Assembly: GCA_020723465.1 (NCBI GenBank)
Contig: DYIW01000009.1
Location: 1 to 43,588, forward strand
Length of the DNA: 43,588 nucleotides
Reading direction: 5' to 3'
Source: Phycisphaera mikurensis
Lineage (GTDB): Bacteria > Planctomycetota > B15-G4 > JADJEK01
Shown here: in pieces, positions 31,429 through 35,338 of the stretch
How positions within the stretch are numbered: position 1 is the first letter of the stretch
Layout of the letters: every line of letters begins with the position of its first letter
Notes under the pieces: generated by a model
What the model was told of the DNA's origin: nothing
The model's database searches: none
The model's input: only the letters and a program-made list of their open reading frames with translations
Program-made: the position numbers and the translations under genes

Positions 31429-32448
31429 ATGGACGAGATCATGCACGTCACCCTGACCGTGAAGCGCGCGCGACGCGACGCCAAACTGGACGAGCTGTTC
31501 CAGCGCGAGCAGGAACGCATCGTGCGGCGCCTGGGGCGCCTGCCCGGCGATCTCGTCACGCTGCAATGCGAGATCGACCTCAACCAGCACCTCAAGGAGG
31601 GGTACGCGTCCCTGACCCTGAGCCTGCCGACCGGCCAGCTCAACGCGCGCGGCGTCGGCGGCAACGTGCTTTCGGCCCTGCGCGACGCGGTCGATGACCT
31701 GCTGGTGGAGCTGGATCGCCACAAGGAGCGCTACCGGCGCGAGCGGCGCCAGCGCAAGTCGCTGCGGCACGAGGTCACCGGCGACCTGTCCGGACTGCTG
31801 GAGCGCATTACCGCCGAGGAGCCCGCGGATCTGGCCAAGGTGATCCACCGGACCCTCGGCGAGCTCTATCCCTTCGTGCGCCGCGAGCTGACCCGGCACT
31901 GCGAGGTGCTGGACCGGCCGGAGTGCGGCAGCATCGACGTGGGTGACGTGGTGGAGGAGACCATCCTGACGGCGCTGTCGCGGCGCGCGGAGAAGCCCGA
32001 GGACGTGCCCTTCGACCGCTGGCTGTTCACCTGCGCCTATGACGTGATCGTGCGCGAGGAGGACGCCCTGGCGGAGCGCAACGGCAGCGTCTCCCTGGAG
32101 GAGGACCTGGCCGAGGCCGTGTCCAGGGAGGGCCCGACCAGCGGCGAGGAGATCTTCCTCGATGGCATCCAGAGCACGCGCTTCTTCGCCGACGTGGTGC
32201 CCTCGAAGCACACTCGTTCCCCCGACGTGGAGGCGGACGCGAGGGACCTGCATGTCGCGCTCATGAAGGCGATCCGCCACCTGCCGGAGCCCATGCGCAA
32301 GGTCCTGTCCCTGGTGGCGCTCCACGGCCAGACGGAGCAGGAGGCGGCGCGGCGCCTGTGCTGTTCCGAGGAGAACGTGCGCAGCGTGATGGCGGAGGCG
32401 CGCACGCGGGTGCGCGCGGAGCTGGTGCAGCGCGGCTTCGAGGCCTGA
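31429..32448 (+). CDS. fusion protein: HPF/RaiA ribosome-hibernation domain with sigma-70 factor domains
   Basis: 339 aa. Residues about 5-105 follow the S30AE/HPF fold: HVTLTVKRARRDAKLDELFQREQERIVRRL, then VTLQCEIDLN, YASLTLSLPTGQLNARGVGGNVLSALRDAVDDLLVELDRHKERYRRER. Residues about 135-210 look like sigma region 2 (IDVGDVVEETILTALSRRAEKPEDVPFDRWLFTCAYDVIVRE). Residues about 273-332 are sigma region 4 with an HTH (HLPEPMRKVLSLVALHGQTEQEAARRLCCSEENVRSVMAEARTRVRAEL). It could bind ribosomes, RNA polymerase, or both, linking translation state to transcription. ATG 31429 is only one base after GGAG; ATG 31441 (MHVTLTV) has a more usual distance and fits HPF N-termini better. Confidence 0.82.
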   Translation: MDEIMHVTLTVKRARRDAKLDELFQREQERIVRRLGRLPGDLVTLQCEIDLNQHLKEGYASLTLSLPTGQLNARGVGGNVLSALRDAVDDLLVELDRHKERYRRERRQRKSLRHEVTGDLSGLLERITAEEPADLAKVIHRTLGELYPFVRRELTRHCEVLDRPECGSIDVGDVVEETILTALSRRAEKPEDVPFDRWLFTCAYDVIVREEDALAERNGSVSLEEDLAEAVSREGPTSGEEIFLDGIQSTRFFADVVPSKHTRSPDVEADARDLHVALMKAIRHLPEPMRKVLSLVALHGQTEQEAARRLCCSEENVRSVMAEARTRVRAELVQRGFEA

Positions 32449-32521: not shown

Positions 32522-33007
32522 ATGACACGACTGGACGCCGCGGCTGCGCGCCTGCTCGCCCTCCTCCTGCCGGTGCTGGCGGCGGCCTGCTCCAGCTCCG
32601 GAGATCCACAGGACGTGGAGGGCATCGGCCTGGCCGGCGACGAGGTCTTCCGCTGTCTCGACGTGCCGGACGCGGATCCGGGGCGCGTGTACGAAGTGGC
32701 CCGGGCGCTGCTGCGCGTGCACTTCGCAGGCGGGCGCCTGATCGAGGATCCGGCGGGGCGCAAGCTGGAGGTCCTGCCGCGCGCCTTCAGCTCCTCGCCG
32801 CGCCGGCTGCAGGTGTTCCTCGAGGTGCTGCCGGCGGAACAGGGAGCGCGCGTCGAGATCTTCTGCAAGGTGGACGAGCTGCGCGAGGATCTGGCCGAGA
32901 ACCCGGCCGAGCCGTGGCGCTTCGCTGGCCGGGACGCGGCGCTGGAGAACCTGCTGCTGCACGAGATCTGGGACGAGGTGGTGGTCCGGCCCGCGGAGGG
33001 CAGGTAG
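32522..33007 (+). CDS. small hypothetical lipoprotein
   Basis: 161 aa. The N-terminal hydrophobic segment ends in LAAAC followed by SSSGD, a clear lipobox. The mature part has alternating strands (GRKLEVLPRAF, LQVFLEVLPAEQGARVEIFCKVDEL) and a terminal helix. No family is recognised. ATG 32522 puts the signal peptide at the N-terminus; the upstream ATG at 32486 adds 12 basic residues and is less likely. It lies 73 bases after the HPF-sigma gene on the same strand. Confidence 0.72.
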   Translation: MTRLDAAAARLLALLLPVLAAACSSSGDPQDVEGIGLAGDEVFRCLDVPDADPGRVYEVARALLRVHFAGGRLIEDPAGRKLEVLPRAFSSSPRRLQVFLEVLPAEQGARVEIFCKVDELREDLAENPAEPWRFAGRDAALENLLLHEIWDEVVVRPAEGR

Positions 33008-33076: not shown

Positions 33077-35338
33077 ATGACCGCGGACATCCATCAGATG
33101 GCTCGCGACGGCCGGAAGCCTCGAGCCGGACCGCCACCGCAGCCCGCGGCCGCCGGCCCGCGCCGCGTCCCGGGCCGCCTCCTGGCCGTCGTGCTGCTCT
33201 TGCTCGTCGTGCTCGCCACGCCGCTCTGGGTGGCGCTGCGCTGGCCAACCGCCGCGGAGCTGCTGCTGAACGGCGGGCTCCTGCTGCTGCTCGCCTGTGC
33301 TCCGGCCTCGGCCGGCGCGCGCGGCGCCCGCCCGGGCAGAACCTCCGCCCTCGGCATGATCGCGCTGGCGCTGGGCGCGGCCTTCTGCCTGGCGCGGCTC
33401 GACGGCCTGGGCTTCCGGCCGGTCCTGTTCTCGATCGAGCTGCTGTGCAAGCTCGGCGGGCTGCTGTTCCTGGGCTTTGCGCTGGGCCGCAGCGAGCGCC
33501 GGGCGCGCGTGCGGCCGGTCTCGGCCGGGGCGCTCCTGGGCACGACCTTCGACTCCGTGTGCGAGCCGATCGTGGTCGTCGACTCGGGCTGCCGCGTGCG
33601 CCTGGCGAACAGCTACGCGCACCAGCGCTTCTCCGGCACGCTGCTCGGGCTGCTCGCCTGCGAGACGCCGTACTTCCGGCGCGACGCCTGCCACGGCTGC
33701 CCGGTCGGCGAGTGCTTCGCCAGCGGCGCGCCGCGCTTCTTCACCGTGCGGGACCAGGCGTGCAAGCCGCGCTACGAGGTTTCCGCCATGCTGGTCGAGG
33801 AAGGAGGCGGCGCGGAGACCCTGCAGGTGCAGCGCGTGAGCGAGGTGAGCGCGCGCACGCAGACCGAGGAGCGCCTGCGGTTCCTGGGTGAGGCGGTCGC
33901 CTCGCTGGATGACGCCGTGCTGGGTCTGGATCCGGCCGCCAGGGTGACGGCGCTGAATCCCCGCTGCCGCGAGCTGTTCGGCCTGGACGAGGCGCAGGCC
34001 GTGGGCCGGCGGCTGGTCGACGTGATCCGCTGCGCGGACGAGTCCGGTCGGCGCGAGCTGGAACGGGCGCTGGCGCGCGCGGGCAGTGCGCGCTTCGACG
34101 CCGACCTGCTGGCGGGAGCGGGCCGCCTGCTGCGCACCGTCGTCTCGGTCGCGCCCGTGCTGGACGACGAACGTCAGCCCATCGGCATGTCGGTCATCAT
34201 CCGCGACGTCACCGAAAGCCGGCGCGTGGAAGAGGCCTTGCGCCAGTCCGAGAAGATGTCCTCGCTCGGCGCGTTCGTCGCCGGCCTGGTGCATGAGCTG
34301 AACAACCCGCTCTCGGCCATCCACGGCGCGGCGGAAGCGCTCTGCCGCGCGCGGCTCGGCGGCGCGCCGGCCGCCGCGCGCCTGGAGGACCTCTTCCGTC
34401 ACGCCGAGCGCTGCCGGCGCATCGTCGACGGCCTGCTGCGCTTCTCGCGCAAGAGCTCCGGCGCGCAGCAGGCCACGGACCTGAACCAGGTCGTGGCGGA
34501 TACCGTCGAGCTGTTCGGGCGTTCCCTGGCGCGCGAGGGCATCGCGCTGCGCGTGCGGGCGGAGGCGAGCCTGCCGGCGCTGTGGGCCTGCGCTTCCCAG
34601 TTGCAGCAGGTGCTGGTCAACCTGATCTCCAACGCGCGCGACTCGATTGCCGCGGCCGGCCGCGGCGGGACGATCGCCCTGACCACGGGTCGCGCCCAGG
34701 AGAGCTGCATACTCGAGGTCGAGGACGACGGCGCGGGCATCGCGCCGGAGGCGCTGGACCGCGTGTTCGAGGCCTTCTTCACCACCAAGGAGGAGGGCCG
34801 CGGCGTCGGGCTGGGGCTCGCCATCTCGCGCGCCATCGTGGCGGAGCATGGCGGCGTCCTGGAGGCTGTGCCGCGGCCGCGGCGCGGGGCGCTCTTCCGC
34901 GTGGTGCTGCCGCTCTGCGCCGCGGGCCGCGCGCGGCCGCCGGCCGAGCCAACCGCGCCGCTGGCAGCGGGGCGCAAGCGCGTGCTCGTCGTGGACGACG
35001 AACCGGCTGTCGCCTCCAGCTTGCGGGAGAGACTCGAGGCGCTCGGCCACGAGGTGCGCGCCGTGGGTGGGGGCCGCGCCGCCCTCGACCTGCTCAAGCG
35101 CGACCGCGAGTTCGATCTGGTGCTCTGCGACGTGTGCATGCCCGATCTGAGTGGCGTGGATCTCTACCGCGCCGTGGCGGCCGCGGCGCCCGCGTATCGC
35201 GGCCGCTTCGTCTTCGTCACCGGCGACATGCTGGATGAGGACCTCGCGCTCGCGCACGGCAACCGCGTCCTGTTCAAGCCGTTCAACGGCGACCAGCTCG
35301 AGCTGCTCGTGGCTGACGCGGCCGCCAGCCCGGCCTAG
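33077..35338 (+). CDS. hybrid sensor histidine kinase with two PAS domains and a C-terminal receiver
   Basis: 753 aa. An N-terminal Pro/Arg-rich cytoplasmic stretch, then about four TM helices (residues 30-135). PAS 1 (about 150-255) contains a Cys cluster C195-x9-C-x2-C-x4-C (CETPYFRRDACHGCPVGEC). PAS 2 (about 270-390) follows. The kinase core has H406 in VHELNNPLSAIHG, the N-box VLVNLISNARDSI, G1 EVEDDGAGIAPEAL, F FEAFFTTKEEG and G2 GVGLGLAISRAIV. The receiver carries D685 in LVLCDVCMPDLSG and a Lys in VLFKPF. It is an NtrB-type HK; the Cys cluster suggests redox or metal sensing. No separate response regulator is adjacent, so output may be by phosphorelay elsewhere. Confidence 0.92.
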   Translation: MTADIHQMARDGRKPRAGPPPQPAAAGPRRVPGRLLAVVLLLLVVLATPLWVALRWPTAAELLLNGGLLLLLACAPASAGARGARPGRTSALGMIALALGAAFCLARLDGLGFRPVLFSIELLCKLGGLLFLGFALGRSERRARVRPVSAGALLGTTFDSVCEPIVVVDSGCRVRLANSYAHQRFSGTLLGLLACETPYFRRDACHGCPVGECFASGAPRFFTVRDQACKPRYEVSAMLVEEGGGAETLQVQRVSEVSARTQTEERLRFLGEAVASLDDAVLGLDPAARVTALNPRCRELFGLDEAQAVGRRLVDVIRCADESGRRELERALARAGSARFDADLLAGAGRLLRTVVSVAPVLDDERQPIGMSVIIRDVTESRRVEEALRQSEKMSSLGAFVAGLVHELNNPLSAIHGAAEALCRARLGGAPAAARLEDLFRHAERCRRIVDGLLRFSRKSSGAQQATDLNQVVADTVELFGRSLAREGIALRVRAEASLPALWACASQLQQVLVNLISNARDSIAAAGRGGTIALTTGRAQESCILEVEDDGAGIAPEALDRVFEAFFTTKEEGRGVGLGLAISRAIVAEHGGVLEAVPRPRRGALFRVVLPLCAAGRARPPAEPTAPLAAGRKRVLVVDDEPAVASSLRERLEALGHEVRAVGGGRAALDLLKRDREFDLVLCDVCMPDLSGVDLYRAVAAAAPAYRGRFVFVTGDMLDEDLALAHGNRVLFKPFNGDQLELLVADAAASPA

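Follow-up and report, generated by a model that had tools for sequence, protein, structure and literature searches.

What does a protein do that joins, in one reading frame, a ribosome-hibernation domain to the fold of a sigma factor? We took up this question for a gene in a 43,588-nucleotide stretch of DNA (contig DYIW01000009.1; hereafter, the window) from a Planctomycetota genome named Phycisphaera mikurensis. The initial annotation, made from the letters of the window, had read the gene as an S30AE-like domain continuous with sigma regions 2 and 4, and had suggested either a factor coupling ribosome occupancy to promoter choice or a sigma domain recruited to regulate hibernation.

A hibernation domain and a sigma-derived half in one frame

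A single uninterrupted frame occupies positions 31429-32448 (339 aa). The start is more likely at 31441 (M5) than at 31429, because the sister-species orthologue has an in-frame stop just upstream of the Met equivalent to M5. The gene, its parts, the orthologue and the downstream neighbours are listed here.

31441..32448, + strand: coding sequence of the HPF-sigma fusion protein, 335 aa from M5 (alternative start 31429, giving 339 aa)
31441..31743, + strand: S30AE / HPF-RaiA domain, residues 5-105, with profile, profile-profile and predicted-structure matches
31849..32073, + strand: sigma-70 region-2-like helical domain, residues 141-215, from TIGR02937, hhalign and clade membership
31945..31959, + strand: acidic motif DVVEE, residues 173-177, replacing the core-binding DxxQE of region 2.2 (Gln to Glu)
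31993..31998, + strand: family signature Lys189-Pro190 (K/R-P) in the region 2.2-2.3 loop, with P190 nearly invariant
32020..32076, + strand: region 2.3-2.4 segment from W198, net charge -4, without the Asn and basic residues of ECF sigmas
32254..32421, + strand: sigma-70 region 4 helix-turn-helix, residues 276-331; recognition helix residues 313-327 (SEENVRSVMAEARTR), net charge 0
32522..33007, + strand: putative lipoprotein gene downstream of the fusion gene; adjacency kept within the same family (G001, G003), context only
33077..35338, + strand: PAS hybrid histidine kinase gene downstream of the fusion gene; adjacency kept in G001 and G003, context only
L003 2519-3526: sister-species orthologue of the fusion gene, the basis for the start placement

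The orthologue is 88% identical to the fusion protein, with a dN/dS of 0.22 overall and of 0.11 (S30AE), 0.28 (region 2) and 0.18 (region 4) by domain; these ratios show purifying selection on every domain. The open reading frame is not a chance frame, because dN/dS is 0.11-0.28 across the three domains, and together with the recurrence of the layout in eight Planctomycetota families this also ruled out a frameshift artefact.

The S30AE half was identified by several routes. Pfam PF02482 matched the fusion protein under its cut-off (E=0.003) and the orthologue at 3.7e-4, and was over the cut-off in members of the same layout (L012, L013, L014 and L019, 2e-11 to 1e-5); two of these (L012, 2.1e-11; L019, 1.7e-10) also carried Sigma70_r4_2 over its cut-off. 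In hhalign comparisons, the S30AE half matched standalone Planctomycetota HPFs at 97.9% (E 3.5e-13), with cross-controls at about 1% or less (1% for the S30AE half against ECFs), and standalone HPFs were recovered by the family N-terminal profile. The AlphaFold model, built on a two-sequence alignment (fusion protein and orthologue) and of modest confidence (pLDDT 60), has the beta-alpha-beta-beta-beta-alpha topology of HPF. Searched with Foldseek, this one model matched both the HPFs of V. cholerae and E. coli (TM 0.73-0.78, normalised to the target) and ECF sigma structures (E 4e-5), the latter being the best hits for the C-terminal half.

That C-terminal half matched NCBIfam TIGR02937 over residues 135-331 (6e-15, over cut-off) and, by hhalign, the ECFs of its own genome at 99.2% (E 1e-19), or at 95.4% with the region-2 part alone. 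With Pfam, region 4 was recovered (Sigma70_r4_2, 1.2e-8), S30AE passed in relatives and not in the protein itself, and Sigma70_r2 gave no match in the fusion protein. Placement of the C-terminus in another helix-turn-helix family was ruled out, as sigma families score best, and the profile and fold comparisons show that the sigma half shares ancestry with ECF-type sigma folds. The continuous frame that the initial annotation had proposed is thus borne out by orthologue, profile-profile and AlphaFold/Foldseek evidence alike, and the fusion of S30AE/HPF, sigma-70 region-2-like and region 4 parts in one protein is confirmed.

The fusion shares with HPF/RaiA, short and long (lHPF), the N-terminal S30AE fold, the profile match and a mostly similar net charge. 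Its C-terminal extension stands where lHPF has its dimerisation domain, but is sigma-70-derived and not S30AE_C: PF16321 had no Pfam match in the fusion protein, and this half matches sigma families. The fusion also occurs alongside a separate canonical short HPF of the source genome (133 aa, beside a ptsN-like gene), which ruled it out as the housekeeping HPF. The S30AE half has a net charge of +4, as does the genome's own HPF, and the C-terminal half of its helix 2 is basic (RHKERYRRERR). In the fusion protein, Asp and Val replace two basic HPF helix-2 residues (DK and RQ positions), and ribosome binding may be weaker from the loss of these basic residues. The HPF-like charge of this half is retained in most family members; the long form in genome G265 has -9.

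The window also holds an ordinary sigma-70 gene (69-734) in which regions 2 and 4 are both clear.

Promoter contacts and the family in Planctomycetota

We compared motifs in an ungapped alignment on the DxxQE...W register, with 21 family members against 21 ECFs of the same genome. Fold and register of regions 2 and 4 are common to the family and to ECF sigma-70 proteins (TIGR02937), and the difference lies in the replaced residues. The region 2.2 Gln is Asp or Glu in 21/21 family members, as opposed to Gln in 20 and His in one of the ECFs; the first acidic residue of the motif is kept in all members and the last in most. The K/R-P pair in the loop after the motif sets the family apart from own-genome ECFs, and an Asn at W+7 is present in 0/21 family members versus 17/21 ECFs. 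Mean net charge in region 2.3-2.4 is -1.4 in the family and +3.5 in own-genome ECFs (n=21 each), and in the region 4 recognition helix -1.75 (n=12) versus +2.8, the ECF mean including one mis-registered ECF that lowers it. Because related sequences enter these counts as if they were independent, the p-values are only indicative. As judged from this alignment, the promoter-reading residues of regions 2.3-2.4 and 4 are shown to be lost across the family, leaving neutral or acidic surfaces.

The acidic motif of sigma-70 region 2.2 (D403, Q406, E407) faces the beta-prime clamp helices of RNA polymerase. As this core-binding Gln is uniformly replaced, the family may also bind RNA polymerase differently or not at all.

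The combination of S30AE and sigma-like region 2 was encoded by at least 16 of 392 sampled Planctomycetota genomes, in eight families (f1, f26, f27, f52, f61, f69, f71 and f73), a lower bound given that few candidates were scored per genome. Four of the 16 show the fusion incompletely: in G099 a run of N separates the halves, and part of the N-terminus is missing from the assemblies of G003, G201 and G319. Region 4 is absent in eight Planctomycetota members. Phylogenetically, 20 of 21 region-2 modules formed one clade (98/95) and the remaining long-branch copy was placed ambiguously. Conservation of the gene neighbourhood was limited to within families.

The promoter-choice coupling first suggested for this gene is unsupported, because the promoter-reading residues are lost throughout the family and region 4 is absent in eight members; the alternative, in which a sigma domain has come to regulate hibernation, fits better. 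The same observations bear on a genuine divergent sigma factor, held on idle ribosomes by S30AE and released to transcribe stress genes. The full-length TIGR02937 match would suit such a factor, as would the RefSeq names of several copies (sigma-70, FliA or sigma-28), but with the region 2.3-2.4 and recognition-helix residues lost, the surfaces acidic, the Gln406-equivalent replaced in all members and region 4 absent in many, we consider it very improbable. The automatic names 'sigma-70 factor', 'FliA' and 'sigma-28' for family members are probably wrong as to function.

PhyR-type anti-sigma binding uses both sigma halves. A PhyR-like decoy, which would titrate an anti-sigma when off or excluded from the ribosome and so free a true ECF sigma, is therefore at odds with the many Planctomycetota members without region 4. 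The Pfam PhyR_sigma-like model does match region 4 of some members (L013, 1.5e-7; L118, 1.1e-5), being over its cut-off in L012 and L013 and under it in other members, but in L012 Sigma70_r4_2 outscores it. The roughly 60 sigma-70 family genes of the source genome would be possible targets; on the other side, no anti-sigma gene was recognised beside any fusion-gene copy looked at, which includes the neighbours of the window copy, as the initial annotation had stated. No NepR-like gene was recognised next to these copies either. The precedent is PhyR itself, a sigma mimic that binds the anti-sigma NepR and likewise has a sigma fold with degenerate promoter and core contacts (PMC8103513); PhyR is fused to a receiver domain, whereas the fusion protein has S30AE instead and its family has often lost region 4. 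Weighing these points, we regard a decoy of this kind as improbable.

Genome G265 encodes two paralogues on one contig (L097 and L098), a long form that includes region 4 and a short one that lacks it, the latter about 0.9 kb from an Hsp20 gene. The G003 homologue (L005 171-1400, +) ends after region 2; beyond it comes a convergent frame, rich in Lys, Ala and Pro, with an acidic tail.

Proteobacterial homologues and orf11 of the heat-resistance islands

The architecture also recurs in Proteobacteria. With two Planctomycetota members as tblastn queries against plasmids, full-length homologues were found at 26-28% identity (E down to 7e-12). The gene order in Shinella is Hsp20-Hsp20-MarR-FtsH-ClpK-like-[fusion]-HdeD-...-rhomboid-ClpP-TrxC-Kef, and in Burkholderia and Paraburkholderia Hsp20 x3 ... 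[fusion]-GroES-GroEL-DnaK; the [fusion]-HdeD pair is also present in Caulobacter and Sphingobium. Proteobacterial queries retrieved homologues from about 290 plasmid records, mostly of Klebsiella, Enterobacter, Acinetobacter and E. coli, and in three records inspected from those genera the homologue is the 'hypothetical protein' adjoining hdeD-GI, before trx-GI, of tLST/LHR. This is the position of orf11, a hypothetical protein of unknown function between hdeD-GI and trx-GI (PMC8290217, PMC8407380).

E. coli orf11 matched the Planctomycetota family profile over its full length (E 6e-17 in a set of 8; hhalign 97.9%). The S30AE assignment in orf11 rests on this full-length homology, because the S30AE part matches weakly when taken alone, and Pfam and NCBIfam miss it. 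In all eight proteobacterial proteins examined the DNA-contact losses recur, including Gln to Asp, and the N-terminal 115 residues have net charges of +6 to +12. All family sigma modules, from Planctomycetota and Proteobacteria, fall into one clade apart from ECFs (98/93). By homology and phylogeny, tLST/LHR orf11 of E. coli and Klebsiella is a diverged member of the fusion family, which is old and mobile. Orf11 is faster evolving and, unlike the window copy, lies in a mobile heat-resistance island; tLST genes (clpK, hdeD, yfdX, trx, kef) were not found beside the window copy or other Planctomycetota copies, the Hsp20 gene near one G265 copy being the exception. An orf11 match was present in 152 of 5,426 complete E. 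coli genomes, in 144 over most of its length.

In E. coli MG1655 lacZ::LHR, seven deletions reduced heat or chlorine resistance; the single-gene deletion of orf11 is not one of them, and it left membrane-lipid oxidation unchanged (PMC8407380). A direct role in acute killing assays is thereby disfavoured. The result would be compatible with a role in dormancy or recovery, which the assays as described do not single out and which chromosomal HPF/RaiA/RMF could mask.

The records themselves are uneven. Orf11 (L121:8001-9146, L122:8001-9146, L123:8001-9146) is 'hypothetical' in most, while at least one E. coli genome (H104) labels it 'RNA polymerase sigma factor'; the annotation is inconsistent and probably misleading. 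The megaplasmid of Methylorubrum extorquens AM1 (L117), a laboratory model bacterium, carries a copy 87% identical to the Shinella protein, with an AMRFinder yfdX1 call nearby, in a stretch where PLSDB has no gene annotation. In Cupriavidus pMTS3 (L126 6184-6897), the homologue is split into two ORFs, one hypothetical and one with a sigma-like HTH, and this copy is probably decayed.

A proposed role in hibernation

We propose, with a probability of roughly 0.6, that the fusion protein acts in stress as a ribosome-binding factor of the hibernation type, and that its promoter-blind sigma fold serves as a protein-docking arm. We favour this reading because the ribosome-type charge is kept, promoter reading is lost, the sigma fold and acidic patch are kept, selection is purifying and homologues lie in heat islands. 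The S30AE domain, given its fold, profile match and retained basic charge, would sit in the 30S decoding region as HPF/RaiA does. The C-terminal fold of sigma-70 region 2, with or without region 4, would no longer read or melt promoters and may instead dock a protein, in place of the long-form HPF dimerisation domain; the likeliest docking face would be the region 2.2 surface that carries the conserved acidic DxxEE motif. As partner of the arm, core RNA polymerase is our tentative first choice and self-association a doubtful second; an anti-sigma is unlikely, and some other partner less likely still.

Self-association could also stand as an explanation of its own, in which the sigma-like half replaces the long-HPF C-terminal domain, pairs ribosomes into 100S-like dimers and has no transcription partner. 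It would agree with the position of the sigma half, the same after S30AE as that of the long-HPF C-terminal domain, with the dispensability of region 4 in eight members and with the short form of the source genome's own HPF. In bacteria, the long-HPF C-terminal domain is inferred to have been lost repeatedly (PMC13324472). The conserved acidic region 2.2 motif, however, lies on the sigma partner face and not on any obvious homodimer face; we judge this explanation unlikely.

A more specific form of the docking-arm proposal, which is speculative and rather unlikely, would have S30AE plug the 30S subunit while the sigma arm fills the sigma site of core polymerase; ribosomes and polymerase would in this way be stored and silenced together under stress, and in Proteobacteria the gene would have spread with mobile heat-resistance islands, as their orf11. 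Should the arm bind RNA polymerase, such a coupling of ribosome and polymerase dormancy would be directly testable. The docking-arm reading itself gives a testable proposal for tLST/LHR orf11, and suggests a tie between translation shutdown and stress survival in one protein.

HPF-sigma fusions are apparently an undescribed hibernation-factor family with a sigma-derived C-terminal module; no description of HPF fused to a sigma-derived module was found in the literature searched, which was mostly without subscription journals, so that absence is not proof. HibA (HPF-CBS) likewise joins a hibernation domain to a module from another context; unlike the fusion protein it is archaeal, with a CBS module, a C-terminal HPF domain and no sigma part, and the text consulted makes no mention of a sigma fusion (PMC13324472).

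No S30AE gene was found in a search beside the sigma-only genes of family f29. Four genomes of this family (L018/L113, L083, L084 and L086) encode a promoter-dead sigma region 2 plus region 4 module without S30AE, nested inside the fused family, which probably reflects loss of the ribosome half; as read from these genes, the sigma-like module can act without ribosome binding.
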